DNA of 64,000 bases from Agelas oroides. Lineage: Eukaryota; Porifera; Demospongiae; Agelasida; Agelasidae. The position numbers were made by a program, and so were the translations under genes. The stretch lies in contig OX422192.1 in the NCBI GenBank assembly GCA_949130485.1, positions 3,790,085-3,854,084 of the forward strand. Reading direction: 5' to 3'. Positions 13,511 through 57,657 of this stretch are shown here, piece after piece (the first letter of the stretch is position 1; every line of letters begins with the position of its first letter). Under the pieces are notes generated by a model. The model was not told the origin of the DNA. It searched no databases and saw only the letters and a list, made by a program, of their open reading frames with translations.

Positions 13511-13847
13511 TAGTCTCGCGTGGCCACACCCCGTTCCGCAAGAGATGGAAGGGGTCTGGTAACTTCTTTTACAGCAGTTTGTTCCTCGCACTGTGGAGTG
13601 CGGGACCAATCACAGCGCAGTATTCTGTCACATGAGTGCTGTTATCACAACTTCAATAGGAAATTACAAGGTGTATATCAACTGTGAAACCACAAGCAGC
13701 TGCTTCGTCACTCTTCTCGAGATAATTATGCGGCCTTAGCGCTAGCGCAATGCGAGTAAATGAAATTCCTGTGCAACAAGCGGCTGCAGCGAAAGTTACC
13801 AGACCCCTTCCCTCTCTTGCGGAACGGGGTGTGGCCACGCGAGACTA
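13511..13847. mobile_element. MITE with 9-bp TSD (GTATATACT)
   Basis: The ends TAGTCTCGCGTGGCCAC and GTGGCCACGCGAGACTA are exact inverted repeats; pairing extends over more than 50 bp. GTATATACT flanks both sides (13,502-13,510 and 13,848-13,856), a perfect 9-bp target duplication typical of Mutator-like insertion. It is inserted inside the decayed hammerhead repeat downstream of NNMT copy A. Confidence 0.9.
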
Positions 13848-13856
13848 GTATATACT

Positions 13857-13900
13857 GGCCAATAGCAAGCCTCGTCAGCTACGATGAGGAACTGAATCTG
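13857..13900 (-). ncRNA. Decayed hammerhead relic, NNMT copy A flank
   Basis: On the minus strand this reads CTGACGA-GGCTTGCTATTGGCC. It corresponds to the CTGATGA core and stem II of the intact motif at 50.7 kb, with a core substitution. The rest of the ribozyme is separated by the MITE at 13,511-13,847. It cannot be active. Confidence 0.6.
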
Positions 13901-31214: not shown

Positions 31215-31399
31215 TTGGTACACAAATAAAGGACTCAGAACTACGTAGAGTGTGTGGCTGACAAACTTTAACATTATGAGACTAGTAGAAAAATATGTGA
31301 CTGTTAATTGCTATATCTGACCACAAATACTTGACTTGTTTCTTGAATTACTTGTAAGTTTTCAAGGTGAGGTAGCGATCCTAAGAGAATTTGGTCACA

Positions 31400-31462
31400 T
31401 CATAGCTGATGAGGCCTGCATGCTATTGGCCCAAATGCATGCGTCCTGCACAGCAGGGTGAC
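31400..31462 (+). ncRNA. Decayed hammerhead relic, NNMT copy B flank
   Basis: CTGATGA (31,406-31,412), GGCC-TGCATGCTATT-GGCC (stem II), then CAAA in place of GAAA, TGCATGCGTC and CTGCACAGCAGGGTG. The invariant G12 is changed to C and stem I pairing is lost, so it should be inactive. The arrangement is otherwise that of the intact motif at 50.7 kb, with several CG positions now CA or TG. Confidence 0.75.
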
Positions 31463-31569
31463 TCTTAACATTTAGCAGGGAGACGTGTTTGATTTCTGCA
31501 CATGCCCATGTATACCAAAACATATTTGCATGGACCCGTGTACCAATGCATGCATGCACATATATATAT

Positions 31570-36079: not shown

Positions 36080-36848
36080 TAGTCTCGGAGCCAGACCCTC
36101 GCACGCGGAGGAGGAGGGTCTGGTAAAATACATGAAGTCCGCGGAATTTCGGCGGGGATGAATCTGATTGGTTGATGATATGTCATTACATTTCTGCCCA
36201 CGAAGGCACGTGTTCGTGTAATAACAACATGGAGAATTTGATTGACGGACTCGCGATTGATACAAGAATCGAAACGACCACCGTTCACCAAGCTTAGATA
36301 CTCTCCAGCGAATCTCGAGCAGCTGGAAAGCTGTTATGAAAGGGATAGAAGTCTTCGGTTTCACTACCCGGGCAGTGGAACTGTGAAAGTCCCTCTGCTA
36401 TGGTAGTCTGCGTTCATCGGCAAATTTTGGGGCACGCGGAAGTCATGGAGCCGGGGGCAGACTAAAGTCCATCGTAGTTGTAAGCCCGCTGGAGGCACTC
36501 ATGCTTGATGTAGCTGACGCATTTACGACAATGGATGTAAGTTATGCTTATTTCTGTAGCCAACATCACAGTTCTGGGCTGCCCTGCTACTTCGCTATTT
36601 AAATTGTCTGCCAAAAGAAGCAGTGGCGCTCTCCAAGGTACTATCAAACAATCGCGCTTTGTTACTAGTATCTTCACTGGCAGCGACAAAGGTCTACAGT
36701 AGCTAATTGAACGCATGCATATTTTCACCCAATCAACACCTTCAATTATTGCTTAGTCAGCCTGTAAGGCCATATCCCATAAAGAGTTTATGTATACAAC
36801 TTTACCAGACCCTCCTTCTCTGCGAGCGAGGGTCTGGCTCCGAGACTA
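36080..36848. mobile_element. MITE with 9-bp TSD (GCATCTGGG)
   Basis: Ends TAGTCTCGGAGCCAGACCCT and AGGGTCTGGCTCCGAGACTA are exact inverted repeats. GCATCTGGG flanks both sides (36,071-36,079; 36,849-36,857). The empty site in copy B reads GCATTTGGG. 769 bp, non-coding. It splits the hammerhead relic of copy C. Confidence 0.92.
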
Positions 36849-36856
36849 GCATCTGG

Positions 36857-36890
36857 GCTAATAGCATGCAGGCCTCATCAGCTACGATGA
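36857..36890 (-). ncRNA. Decayed hammerhead relic, NNMT copy C flank (5' part)
   Basis: Minus strand: CTGATGAGGCCTGCATGCTA then TTAGCCCAGATGC, where the transposon interrupts. Core CTGATGA is intact but stem II and the GAAA box are damaged. Confidence 0.65.
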
Positions 36891-37113
36891 GGTGACAAAA
36901 TTCTCTTAGGATCGCTACCTCATCTTGAAAACTTACATGTAATTCAAGAAACAAGTCAAGTATTTGTGGTCAGATATAGCAATTAACAGTCACATCTTCT
37001 TCTACTAGTCTCTTAAGTATAATGTTAATTTTGTCCGCCACACTGGGTGGCATAGCCCACTCTACGTAGTTCTGAGTTCTTTATTTCAAACGGACTAGGA
37101 AACATTCATTGTA

Positions 37114-45615: not shown

Positions 45616-45843
45616 GAAATGTATATAGTGCTTCTTTTTTGCTCTGGTCTTACAAAATGTGATGAACATCTTTGCTTCGGTTGAATATTTAATAAGATGA
45701 CGTAACCTTTTTAAACCGGGTAAACTTAGTCTCTCCCACTTCCTGCCATGCTTGAAATATTCATTGCTCACGCGCACGCCCACATCGGGCCCCACCCACG
45801 TCCACATGAGGTTCTATCAACTCCACCCACTTTTGTCACACAG

Positions 45844-46983
45844 ATGACAGTGCGAGTTGCTCGTCTCTTTATTTTGCTGCTCCCCTGCGCGTGCCTGGGC
45901 CTGGACAACGGCCTGGGAAGGACGCCTCAGATGGGATGGAACTCCTGGAACCATTTCCACTGCAACATTAACCAGACCGTCATCCAGGAAACTGCTGACG
46001 TCTTTATCTCGTCTGGACTAAACAAGTTTGGATATGAATACGTGAACGTTGACGATTGCTGGGCAAAGAGCCGGGATTCTAAAGGCGTAATTCAGCCTGA
46101 TCCCGAAACCTTTCCTGATTTCCAGGGTATGATAGACCATGTTCACTCCAAAGGACTCAAGTTCGGTCTATACAGTGATGCGGGCAACAAGACTTGTCAA
46201 AGAAGACCAGGGTCTCTTGGCCACGAGAAAATTGACGCTGACACTTACGCCATGTGGAAGGTGGACTACCTCAAATATGACAACTGCTACAACGATGGCA
46301 TTAGTCCTGAGGTGCGCTACCCAAGGATGCGTGATGCCCTCAATGCTACTGGACGGCCAATTTTCTACTCCTTGTGTGAAGGAGGTCAGGACAATCCTGC
46401 AGAGTGGGGTCCCAATGTGGGAAATAGTTGGCGAACTACTCATGATATTAAAGATGACTGGGACATCATGATATCGCGTGCTGATTTGAACAATGAATGC
46501 TACACATTCGCTGGCCCTGGGGGCTGGAATGATCCAGATATGCTTGAAGTGGGGAACGGAGGGATGAGCACAACTGAATATGAAACACACTTTAGCCTGT
46601 GGTGTTTGATGAAGGCACCATTGCTGATTGGGTGTGATGTACGGAACATGTCCAATGATACATTTCGTATCTTAACAAACTCTGAAGTGATTGCAATCAA
46701 CCAGGATGCCCTGGGTATCCAGGGAAACAAGGTCACATCTGATGGTACCAGAGATGTCTGGGCATCTCCACTTGCAGATGGATCATTTGCTGTTCTTCTT
46801 TTGAACCGGGGCGATGTTACAACTGACATTACTGCACACTGGAATGATTTTGGTCTAGACCCGTCCCAAGAAGCAAATGTTAGAGACTTGTGGGCACACA
46901 AGGACTTGGGTATGGCAAAGGGCAGTGTTACCACCAGTGTAGTGAAACATGGTGTAGCAGTGTTCCGCATCACACCAGCCTGA
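45844..46983 (+). CDS. Secreted alpha-galactosidase, GH27, intronless
   Basis: A 379-aa single-exon enzyme. Start chosen at MTVRVARLFILLLPCACLG, a clear signal peptide; an in-frame ATG 96 bp upstream would precede it with a His/Pro-rich non-hydrophobic leader. The mature part begins LDNGLGRTPQMGWNSWNHF. The nucleophile is Asp146 in YLKYDNC, the acid/base Asp201 in SWRTTHD. GPGGWNDPDMLEVGNGGM, KAPLLIGCD and EVIAINQDALGIQG follow, and a C-terminal beta domain is complete. It removes terminal alpha-galactose from glycans, outside the cell or in lysosomes. SWRTTHDI and MLEVGNGGM resemble plant and bacterial GH27 rather than animal GLA/NAGA, which have MLVIGNFG there. N-glycosylation sites are present (NQT, NKT, NAT, NMS). 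Higher GC than the neighbourhood. Confidence 0.93.
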   Translation: MTVRVARLFILLLPCACLGLDNGLGRTPQMGWNSWNHFHCNINQTVIQETADVFISSGLNKFGYEYVNVDDCWAKSRDSKGVIQPDPETFPDFQGMIDHVHSKGLKFGLYSDAGNKTCQRRPGSLGHEKIDADTYAMWKVDYLKYDNCYNDGISPEVRYPRMRDALNATGRPIFYSLCEGGQDNPAEWGPNVGNSWRTTHDIKDDWDIMISRADLNNECYTFAGPGGWNDPDMLEVGNGGMSTTEYETHFSLWCLMKAPLLIGCDVRNMSNDTFRILTNSEVIAINQDALGIQGNKVTSDGTRDVWASPLADGSFAVLLLNRGDVTTDITAHWNDFGLDPSQEANVRDLWAHKDLGMAKGSVTTSVVKHGVAVFRITPA

Positions 46984-50002: not shown

Positions 50003-50279
50003 CTGCTGACGCAGAACCTGCGCGCCAGCGCGCAGAGACTATCTTTTCTGCGCAGTGCGCAGTATGACGTTATCAAAAGTGTACTATAGGGTTTAAAGGG
50101 TTAATTCTGAATAGTACACTGCAGATCTCTCAAGTAGGTTGTTTTTTGCCAAATTGTTATTGTAGGTTCATTGCTCTATGGTCTAAGTTGTTTTGGTATC
50201 AGAATGCTGCAAGTTACTGAAATATTGCTAAGTTACTAAAGGTATGACCTGGTCCAGGCAATTTTTTTGACTTTTGTAG

Positions 50280-50482
50280 CAGTAATATACGCAGTGTAAA
50301 CTTGATCTGCACCAACAAGAATGGGTGTGATAGTAATATACGCTGTGTAAACTTGATCTGCACCAACAAGAATGGGTGTGGTAGTAATATACGCAGTGTA
50401 AACTTGATCTGCACCAACAGGAATGGGTGTGGTAGTAATATACGCTGTGTAAACTTAATCTGCACCAACAAGAATGGGGTGT
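50280..50482 (+). repeat. 51-bp minisatellite, 4 copies
   Basis: Units TAATATACGCWGTGTAAAC, TTGATCTGCACCAACA, GAATGGGTGTGGTAG repeat with few changes. The 17-residue repeat in the open frames is a by-product. Confidence 0.92.
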
Positions 50483-50725
50483 GGTAAAAGCTACCTACTA
50501 GACCTACCTGTCTGTGCAATACTGGAGTGTAATTGTTTATAAAGCTGAAGTAGTGGTGAAACTTTCAGAATTACCCAGTATTCAGACTTACCTTACTCGA
50601 TAGCTCCTCTCTGGGGATAGATAGCTCAACGATTCCATGCCTCTGTATAAAACGTATAACGTAATGTATGAACAATCAACGAACCACATCTCCCTTATAA
50701 AACAGGCCTAGATGTTATGCAAAGT

Positions 50726-50784
50726 CACCCGCTGCGCAGGACGCGTTTCGGCCAATACCAGGCCTCATCAGCTGCGCTGGGGTG
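50726..50784 (-). ncRNA. Type I hammerhead ribozyme, intact core
   Basis: Read 5' to 3' on the minus strand: stem I strand CACCC-CA-GCGCAG; core CTGATGA; stem II GGCC-TGGTATT-GGCC; GAA; stem III ACG/CGT with no loop; GTC, the cleavage triplet; then stem I strand CTGCGC-AGC-GGGTG. Both halves of stem I pair completely (6 bp and 5 bp) around a CA/AGC internal loop, placed where loop II could make the usual tertiary contact. All invariant core bases are present. Predicted cleavage is between 50,740 and 50,739. The very short palindromic stem III (ACGCGT) is as described for hammerheads of Penelope-like elements and retrozymes, which are thought to act as dimers. It is surrounded by non-coding repeat DNA. 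Confidence 0.85.
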
Positions 50785-52780
50785 TATGTACGGGGTTAAA
50801 AGAGTTATGAATAATTTATTAGCGACATTCTGTCTGCACTTTTATACGAGAACGAAGCGAAAAGTAGTTTTGGACGCGACTAGGAATGAGAATAGCTTTA
50901 AAGCTGCTGCGCAGATCGTCCGGCAGTTGACTCTCTTTCAAAGTAAGTTAGCTATGTAGTATGTTAGCTACATTTACGTATGGGGAGCGATGTCAGGGTA
51001 AAATTTGTTTATCACAAAAACAGTTTGAAAAGAACACGAAACGACGATTTCAACAGTACCCATAATCCACATCAATGTGATTGAGTGAACTGCAGCAAGC
51101 GGTACGGTCTTTGAAATGTAACTGGTTTGCCACAAATTTTCTACGTCATTTTAGCGCAATATTATATATTTGCGGCCACTGCTTTTACTGGTAAGCCTGA
51201 TCAGAATGAAACTCGGTGTGAACGATGATCTGTACCAATTCAGTCCAATGAAGGTTTTTCTTTATATATCTAGCATAATCCTTGTACTATAGGCTTGATA
51301 AATGTGGCATTTTGGGCCATAAATAGTTGCATTTCCACATATACGTCAGAGCAGGTTCCAATCAAAAACCTGTACCATCCCATTATCCATCCCATTATCT
51401 ATTATACAGAGCTGGTTGTGCTTTTGAATATTGAAGTAATTTTGAGCAGCATCACTAAATGTATTAATACTTCCACAATATTAATTTGCAGAAAAATAAT
51501 GAACTGTGACAAAAATTGTGTGTATTTTTGATTGAGGCAGATATTCGTAACAAATCAGTGTAAGTTTCTCTAAGGAACCACTGTATCCTAAGATATTGTG
51601 AATGAAATGGCCTGTTTAGAAAAAAATTTACACACTTTTGGAAACTTATATAGTAGCTGTTGTGTGTAAGTATTTGCATAGCACATTGCAAAACAAGTAC
51701 AAAGGCCCTCATGCAAGAGCATAAAAGTTCCATACCAGATTTTGACAACTGTGACAGCCTTTGTGGTGTTCTGCTTTCGTTCTACTTCCTAGTGCATGTT
51801 ATTTACTAAATAAAGTCGAAGTTTTGTACACAGCTTTGAAAGGAAACAATGCAGGCATATAGAAAAGCAGGAAACGTGGAAAGTGGAAATGAAATGGAAT
51901 CTCGAAAATGGAAACTGGAAACAGAACTGGAAGCGCAACCTCTTAGCTGTTGTAGTCTCAGCAAGATTTGCGTATTGTCACTATGCATCCCAGAGCTTTC
52001 CCAGCCGCCATTTGCAGTTTTTGATCACTTGCTTTGCTGGTCTACCCTCATTTCCAGGTGTTTGCTGCCCCCAGTATTTCTATATTGGCAAATACTGGAG
52101 GCAGCAATGGTTGGGAATGAGGCTATTGTACTCAGGTGCTTGTGGAAAATAGGGCCTAGATATGAAGCCATCATTTGCTTCACATAGTTGAGAGTTTGTG
52201 TGTGTGTGCTAATCTTCTTAGCACTTAGCAGTCAGAATAGAGAAGTACCAAAACTTGCGGCCTGTGTCGATTTCATCTACAGGGCCATAGTGGGGCAGAC
52301 AGGGCCGGAACCAGCTATTGGTACAGCCATTGTGATGATGGACAATCAATGCATAAGTCTTAACAAGCTAGGGGGTGTGGGGGCATGCTCCACCAGGAAA
52401 ATTAGGCACTCTGAGATTGCTTCTGAGGTCATGTTTGGGCCAAAATGCTACTAGAATCTCCCCACCTGTAGTTTCTGCAGCTAGTGAAGCCTTTTGAAGT
52501 TATTGAACCAAGCTGCCTGAAATTGCCGCCTCACACAAGCATTTCGCGTGCATGTTAGCCCCTCCCCAATTTGCGCACACTCATCTCGCACTCAAACATC
52601 GCCATAAAAAATTGAGAAGCCTCAATCCTTTCGTCGCTACTTTGGATGCTTGAAGACTTGAAAAACTCTGAGGTTTTCAATTTCCACTTCCAATTTCCTT
52701 TCCTTTCCATTTCTTTTTCATTGCCCAAACAATGCAGTTGTTATGACTCTATAGTTTATGGTTGAATGTCACAACTGCAA
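50785..52780. other. No gene seen; hairpin and MULE-end relics
   Basis: AT-rich. At 52,064-52,107 a hairpin, GCTGCCCCCAGTATTTCTA with GGCAAATACTGGAGGCAGC, lies beside a decayed TAGCCTC-type end (GGGAATGAGGCTA). 52,370-52,450 is a GGGGGC-repeat copy. 51,880-51,935 and 52,680-52,715 are purine- and pyrimidine-rich counterparts. Confidence 0.5.
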
Positions 52781-57571: not shown

Positions 57572-57657
57572 GAGCTCTTTAGCTCAGTTGGTGAGAGCAT
57601 CTGACCAGAGTTCAGAGGACCCAGGTTCAAATCCTGGCTGGATCTCAATGTCTTTTT
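57572..57657 (+). tRNA. tRNA-like Pol III unit (SINE head or tRNA relic)
   Basis: Perfect A box TAGCTCAGTTGG (57,580-57,591) and B box GGTTCAAATCC (57,624-57,634), with a TTTTT terminator at 57,653-57,657. The D stem GCTC/GAGC, anticodon stem TCTGA/TCAGA and T stem CCAGG/CCTGG all pair. The acceptor stem pairs only with extra spacer bases, position 33 is C instead of T, and the variable loop is short although the apparent anticodon AGA is serine. A working tRNA is unlikely; a tRNA-derived SINE head or pseudogene fits better. Confidence 0.65.

Follow-up and report, generated by a model that had tools for sequence, protein, structure and literature searches.

Hammerhead Ribozyme at the Locus

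The window, i.e., the whole 64,000-nucleotide stretch of Agelas oroides DNA that was analyzed, carries on its minus strand a hammerhead ribozyme, which makes up the first half of a 117-bp truncated copy (50784..50668) of a Penelope-like element (PLE). The ribozyme and its parts are as follows:

50726..50784, minus strand: type I hammerhead ribozyme, 59 nt (direct reading; 92.2 bits to model R1; RF02275 below threshold)
50772..50784, minus strand: 5' strand of stem I, with outer CACCC (50784-50780), loop CA and inner GCGCAG (50777-50772) (direct reading)
50765..50771, minus strand: conserved core CUGAUGA (direct reading)
50750..50764, minus strand: stem II, GGCC/GGCC with the 7-nt loop UGGUAUU (direct reading; present in the predicted fold too)
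50747..50749, minus strand: conserved core GAA (direct reading)
50741..50746, minus strand: minimal stem III and loop, self-complementary ACGCGU (direct reading; hexamer duplex -7.5 kcal/mol)
50739..50740, minus strand: cleavage predicted after C17 (50740) on the basis of the hammerhead consensus, with the position verified
50726..50739, minus strand: 3' strand of stem I, with inner CUGCGC, loop AGC and outer GGGUG (direct reading)

On the minus strand, 50784..50726 reads directly as CACCC-CA-GCGCAG / CUGAUGA / GGCC-UGGUAUU-GGCC / GAA / A-CGCG-U / C^CUGCGC-AGC-GGGUG. Stem I consists of 6 inner and 5 outer base pairs around a 2/3 internal loop (CA/AGC) and is open-ended, stem II has 4 bp, and with both stems paired the layout is that of type I. 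The A15.1-U16.1 pair, the cleavage base C17 and the NUH cleavage triplet (GUC) are all present by direct reading and by model alignment. The outer part of stem I has 7 bp in full-length copies (GTCACCC/GGGTGAC) and 5 bp in the window copy, in which it is slightly weakened because of the 5' truncation. The hammerhead at minus 50784..50726 is confirmed as real and lies exactly where the first-pass annotation had put it. That annotation had described a complete type I hammerhead on the minus strand with all invariant bases, fully paired stems I and II, a two-part stem I with an internal loop, a GTC triplet and a minimal stem III, all of which are borne out by direct reading (stem III being one A-U pair that closes a CGCG loop), and its cut position 50740|50739 agrees with the consensus-based one given here.

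The Insertion and Its Copies

Genome matches around the site define the insertion and its flanks:

50668..50784, minus strand: 5'-truncated copy, 117 bp (the 3' terminal 117 nt of the element), of a PLE with N-terminal endonuclease (EN) (genome matches, common 3' end)
50786..50789, minus strand: ACAT 5' of the insertion, separated from it by one base (A); possible target repeat (direct reading)
50664..50667, minus strand: ACAT directly after the 3' end of the element (direct reading)

A 281-bp query around the site gave 40 scored places of 2741 candidates, so that the counts are lower bounds. The window matches the query in full, and at least 39 other places match 117-137 bases at 96-100% identity, from query base 93-99 to 213-233 (base 97 being 50784), i.e., they start at or within 4 bases of 50784. 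Most of the copies displayed extend upstream of the start of the window copy, with sequence that ends in CCCATCTCCCGGT before CACCCC. The 5' start points of the copies vary, while the 3' end ...TTGTTCAT, which lies just past the hammerhead, is common to most copies displayed, and in most of these its distance from the hammerhead is fixed. From the varied 5' starts and the common 3' end it follows that the window holds a 117-bp 5'-truncated insertion. The repeat had been called non-coding in the first-pass annotation, which holds for the window copy and fails for the family, since the parent element codes for protein (see below). The same annotation had named a PLE as one candidate, correctly, the repeat being a 5'-truncated PLE copy; its remark that no coding element is seen on the same strand is true of this copy, which has lost the coding part by truncation.

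The element is present in hundreds of copies in the 259-Mb genome, many of them 98-100% identical, which suggests recent activity, and transcripts may still be made. RCAT follows 22 of the 35 distinct 3' ends, compared with a background of 1.1% in the window; judged from these flanks, the insertions have a clear 3' bias to this short word. The first base of stem I (CACCCC) is the exact start of five insertions with differing flanks (L046, L048, the window copy, L051, and L052), and L033, a sixth, starts about one base after it; the remaining 5' truncations are spread over various positions. The shared start would be explained if an RNA began, or reverse transcription stopped, at that first base of stem I. 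No copy was seen to start exactly at the predicted cleavage site.

The surroundings of the insertion bear on another reading, in which the host has adopted the ribozyme as part of the 5' leader of a gene on the minus strand. The order on the minus strand fits such a leader: TATAAAAG (50846..50839), the hammerhead, an ATG at 50638 and a splice-donor-like GGTAAGT from 50592. However, this GGTAAGT is the edge of another interspersed repeat (50592..50098), which occurs at 23 further places in the genome, and the ATG is separated from the repeat edge by only 46 bases. Since the apparent splice donor belongs to a repeat, the host-leader reading is weakened and we regard it as highly improbable.

Several other features were observed in the window. 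The repeat at 50098-50592 (24 genome places, this one among them) includes a minisatellite of 51 bp. The edge of this repeat, GGTAAGTCTGAATA, is similar to a splice donor, and on visual inspection the two ends of the repeat appear to be imperfect inverted repeats. A further interspersed repeat at 50986-51163 has at least 39 other places (321 candidates) with 77-84% identity. A long hairpin at 52043-52125, with subthreshold matches to miRNA families on either strand (30.4 bits at most), is probably a palindromic repeat, and a tRNA-like match at 57580-57637 (Rfam 41.2 bits, model positions 8-63; no ARAGORN call) is perhaps a tRNA-derived SINE. An alpha-galactosidase of 417 aa is encoded at 45730-46983 by one uninterrupted open frame, and the named organisms among its 120 matches listed are plants.

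Significance and Conservation of the Motif

No hammerhead family of Rfam was matched at the site at curated thresholds. With an open threshold, RF02275 (Hammerhead_HH9) was matched at 50787..50717 on the minus strand (27.1 bits against the curated 52; E 8.5e-4 over 3.5 kb); the core and the layout of stems I and II align with this family, whereas stem III is shorter here. The covariance-model check proposed in the first-pass annotation thus came out negative at curated thresholds and positive for HH9 at the open one. For the bare motif CTGATGAN{6,30}GAAA, 1.19 occurrences are expected by chance in a window of this size and two were found; it is unremarkable in 64 kb, and the significance of the hammerhead comes from its family. 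The extended pattern CTGATGAGN{5,30}CGAAAC has 421 matches in the genome and its reversed control pattern 43, a count of 421 that takes in non-hammerhead places such as L068, L069 and L004. Two of these, L068 and L069, are bare-pattern matches that were not counted as hammerheads, having no match to model R1 and no stem I by eye; close to L068, on the opposite strand, lies a reverse transcriptase (RT) of the C-terminal-EN kind. L004 was also set aside, as it is by eye without stem I and without the GUC triplet. The exact extended 5' form of the hammerhead has 221 copies genome-wide, and a looser pattern gives 299 genome matches as the copy count, with the C carried by all 100 of the matches listed. 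In viral contigs, no relative was found by protein search and none by pattern search.

Model R1, to which the window hammerhead scores 92.2 bits, has 66 positions and was built from 10 sequences of the family including the window itself. It gave 26 matches in 22 of the 24 sources searched, including old copies and other subfamilies; the subfamilies differ in upstream sequence and have the same hammerhead core. Over 25 distinct rows, 88.8% of cells are paired, compared with 25.6-52.5% when the partners are slid. Six pairs have changed on both sides, compared with 2.4 in shuffles and no more than 4 with slid partners; further pair types reached the observed count in 38 of 500 shuffles. The covariation gives modest support for a kept structure, only modest because the rows had been aligned to the structure, with relatedness left in the data. 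Young copies keep the bases of the catalytic core and not the stems alone, and in several old copies the core is disrupted, as may be the case in dead copies.

These results were weighed against a chance resemblance without function. The expectation of about one bare motif per window and the Rfam gathering thresholds that were not reached are what such a resemblance would have in its favor; against it are the 421 matches versus 43 for the control, the pairing kept in diverged copies, and the subfamilies in which differing upstream sequence precedes the same core. Mere chance is hardly credible here.

Three decayed relatives of the hammerhead occur elsewhere in the window:

31392..31463, plus strand: old decayed hammerhead copy, GAAA changed to CAAA (model R1 22.9 bits, E 7.6e-4)
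36809..36898, minus strand: further decayed relative with its 3' half replaced (model R1 14.9 bits, E 0.11, not significant alone)
13806..13895, minus strand: further decayed relative with its 3' half replaced (model R1 13.8 bits, E 0.21, not significant alone)

The latter two have a sequence unit in common with the copy at 31392, in the case of 36809..36898 downstream of a paralogous gene. The three relatives are located downstream of three paralogous methyltransferase-like frames (whose homologues carry PF01234) at a distance of 0.2-0.6 kb, and for this reason an old hammerhead insertion was probably duplicated along with the methyltransferase-like gene.

The Parent Element

Seven copies, selected because their identity extends far upstream, were examined over 10 kb. 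The shared stretch reaches up to ~3.5 kb, and in all seven a coding part lies upstream of the hammerhead in the same sense. The copy L043 has a stop-to-stop frame of 1012 aa, in which a GIY-YIG endonuclease domain (148-237; Pfam 24.7 bits, above the cut-off of 22.6) is followed by an RT (652-862; RVT_1 24.4 bits, E 2.6e-5, below the cut-off of 29.6). Among the 120 homologues listed, the EN stands before the RT in 98 and after it in 13, and 9 are not orderable. PLEs with an N-terminal endonuclease (N-terminal EN+ PLEs) have a CxC motif between EN and RT, an insertion-in-fingers domain in the RT, and an insertion bias to microsatellites. The CxC cysteines (C449 and C451) lie between EN and RT and show no variation in 19 of 19 sequences, each picked from the endonuclease-first group (aligned homologues 31-91% identical). 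In an RT tree of 22 rows, which left out two C-terminal-EN rows without the motif (P0107 and P0118), the EN-first and EN-last orders separate with a support of 1.000. Based on the domain order, the CxC motif and the tree split, the parent is an N-terminal EN+ ("Naiad"-type) PLE and not one of the canonical kind.

Linkage of the Ribozyme to the Element

RT-motif sites number 64 genome-wide, of which the 32 listed, on contigs C1-C6, were checked against the 100 hammerhead places listed. The extended hammerhead lies 807-961 bp downstream on the same strand at 28 of these 32, and within 1.5 kb on the opposite strand at none. The looser pattern recovers one of the four misses (on C4), and at the remaining three of the 32 sites no hammerhead was found with either pattern. 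Six full-length 5' ends were available: four stand directly after a hammerhead-bearing 3' end, one (L053) after a partial piece that starts a few bases downstream of stem I, and one (L054) after neither. Element 3' sequence hence precedes five of the six, as in head-to-tail copies with pseudo-LTRs, and in these tandems the hammerhead therefore stands upstream of the ORF as well as downstream. In two tandems the hammerheads are 3553 and 3558 bp apart, and among the matches listed same-strand neighbors no more than 8 kb apart have a spacing of 3.0-5.7 kb, including 2978 and 5681 bp. At L005, two hammerheads occur in about 1 kb.

It was also considered whether the repeat could be a non-autonomous animal retrozyme with its own hammerhead, amplified in the form of tandem repeats and circular RNA and having only the motif in common with PLEs. 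Metazoan retrozymes likewise combine a type I hammerhead with many genomic copies, and passages of PMC7229834 describe units of about 170-400 nt in diverse animals; the hundreds of copies and the two close hammerheads at L005 would suit such a unit. However, the copies here grade into one another as 5' truncations of a single 3.5-kb coding element, 28 of the 32 RT-motif sites listed carry the hammerhead, and the same-strand spacing among the matches listed is 3.0-5.7 kb instead of 0.2-0.4 kb. A free-standing retrozyme, very improbable in our estimate, was rejected: the ribozyme belongs to the 3.5-kb coding element and not to a small tandem non-coding unit.

Comparison With Known Elements

N-terminal EN+ PLEs (Naiad/Chlamys) are, as Craig et al. 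2021 reportedly stated, without canonical hammerhead motifs, which is a reported trait and not the definition of the group. The present element has in common with them the GIY-YIG domain before the RT, the CxC linker, head-to-tail pseudo-LTRs and 5' truncation, and differs from them, as they are reported, in carrying a hammerhead. Four related loci from other hosts, found in prokaryote records of which two are labeled mussel symbionts, yielded no hammerhead with the model, with Rfam or with the pattern; L057 alone includes the endonuclease, and the EN-first order at the other three is assumed from an RT identity of 36-55%.

Canonical C-terminal EN+ PLEs are said to possess hammerheads. Like the element described here, they combine GIY-YIG and RT domains with a type I hammerhead in the pseudo-LTR region, as judged from Poseidon PAc of the anole in passages of PMC11167929. 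In contrast to them, the domain order is reversed here, with the RT across a fully supported split of the tree, and the hammerhead of the present element lies in the 3' region. The genome of A. oroides itself contains 46 motif sites of C-terminal-EN PLEs, among which one unit, one 3' side and eight pieces were examined. No hammerhead was found over the whole 4306-bp tandem unit of L090, read once, over ~1.9 kb past the endonuclease of L107, or, by pattern, in eight 3-kb pieces of such copies. A weak U1-like match (17.8 of 69.5 bits) lies past the C-terminal-EN PLE of L107 at 1480-1659 on the minus strand.

The combination of a hammerhead with an N-terminal EN+ PLE looks new: a full-text search of one open-licence library did not find it in print, and the passages searched in papers citing Craig et al. 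2021 contain no mention of hammerheads in these elements.

Folding and Proposed Cutting

Minimal PLE hammerheads reportedly cleave as dimers. Almost no stem III is present in them and in the ribozyme described here, for which a second copy is therefore likely needed as well. The lowest-energy fold of the monomer has -32.5 kcal/mol and the active one -24.2 kcal/mol with the A-U pair or -30.1 kcal/mol without it, i.e., 8.3 and 2.4 kcal/mol above the former, respectively. The lowest-energy fold of two strands is an extended duplex and not two active hammerheads. Two hammerheads could nevertheless share a 6-bp stem III through the palindrome ACGCGU; because this hexamer is self-complementary and a single A-U pair forms the ribozyme's own stem III, cleavage may need dimers. 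The older copy L006 has ACAUGU in place of ACGCGU, which is likewise self-complementary. PLE hammerheads are described in passages of PMC7761336 as being without helix III or loop-loop contacts and as cleaving as dimers, and by analogy with them cutting of tandem transcripts would be expected here; the present ribozyme differs from these minimal forms in its long two-part stem I with an internal loop and its 7-nt loop II.

Based on these observations, the site is very probably a short 5'-truncated insertion of a young N-terminal GIY-YIG PLE of ~3.5 kb, which has a sense-strand hammerhead in its 3' region/pseudo-LTR and whose tandem transcripts would be cut at the hammerheads. The anatomy of the hammerhead, its membership in the element, the domain order, the head-to-tail hammerheads and the RCAT bias of the 3' flank are shown at the level of sequence. 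Head-to-tail transcripts would be cut at each hammerhead, and the cutting would free unit-length RNA starting about 72 nt before the 5' end of the next unit. The window copy would be a dead end of the element cycle.

The main rival to cutting is a purely structural role, in which the hammerhead fold is kept as a signal for the RT of the element or for packaging. It derives its rank from the anole PLE, for which PMC11167929 reports that hammerhead-dead RNA was inserted in vitro as well as active RNA and that no RNA reads began or ended at the hammerhead cut site. The fixed distance from the hammerhead to the 3' end in most copies displayed, and the five insertions with differing flanks that start at the first base of stem I, are also compatible with a structural signal. 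Such a signal would not by itself need CUGAUGA, GAA and GUC, yet these core bases are kept in young copies, and we consider a role without cutting rather unlikely. A PLE whose tandem transcripts are cut at the hammerheads is the preferred reading.

Implications for Penelope-Like Elements

The activity and role of PLE hammerheads have been called a mystery in a passage of PMC7761336. The present genome appears to hold a permuted-domain PLE lineage with a working pseudo-LTR hammerhead and C-terminal-EN PLEs apparently without one; we lean slightly towards this picture, in which the motif either pre-dates the split of the two domain orders and was lost repeatedly, or moves between retroelements as a module. 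Given the reported absence of hammerheads from N-terminal EN+ PLEs, a rule would be broken and the range of the ribozyme widened, which would be of interest to specialists. One genome with a hammerhead-bearing permuted family beside C-terminal-EN copies in which no hammerhead was detected constitutes a natural comparison. Should the motif be present in both domain orders, it would be either ancestral to PLEs or repeatedly gained, and this would suggest that a step of the RNA cycle is common to them.
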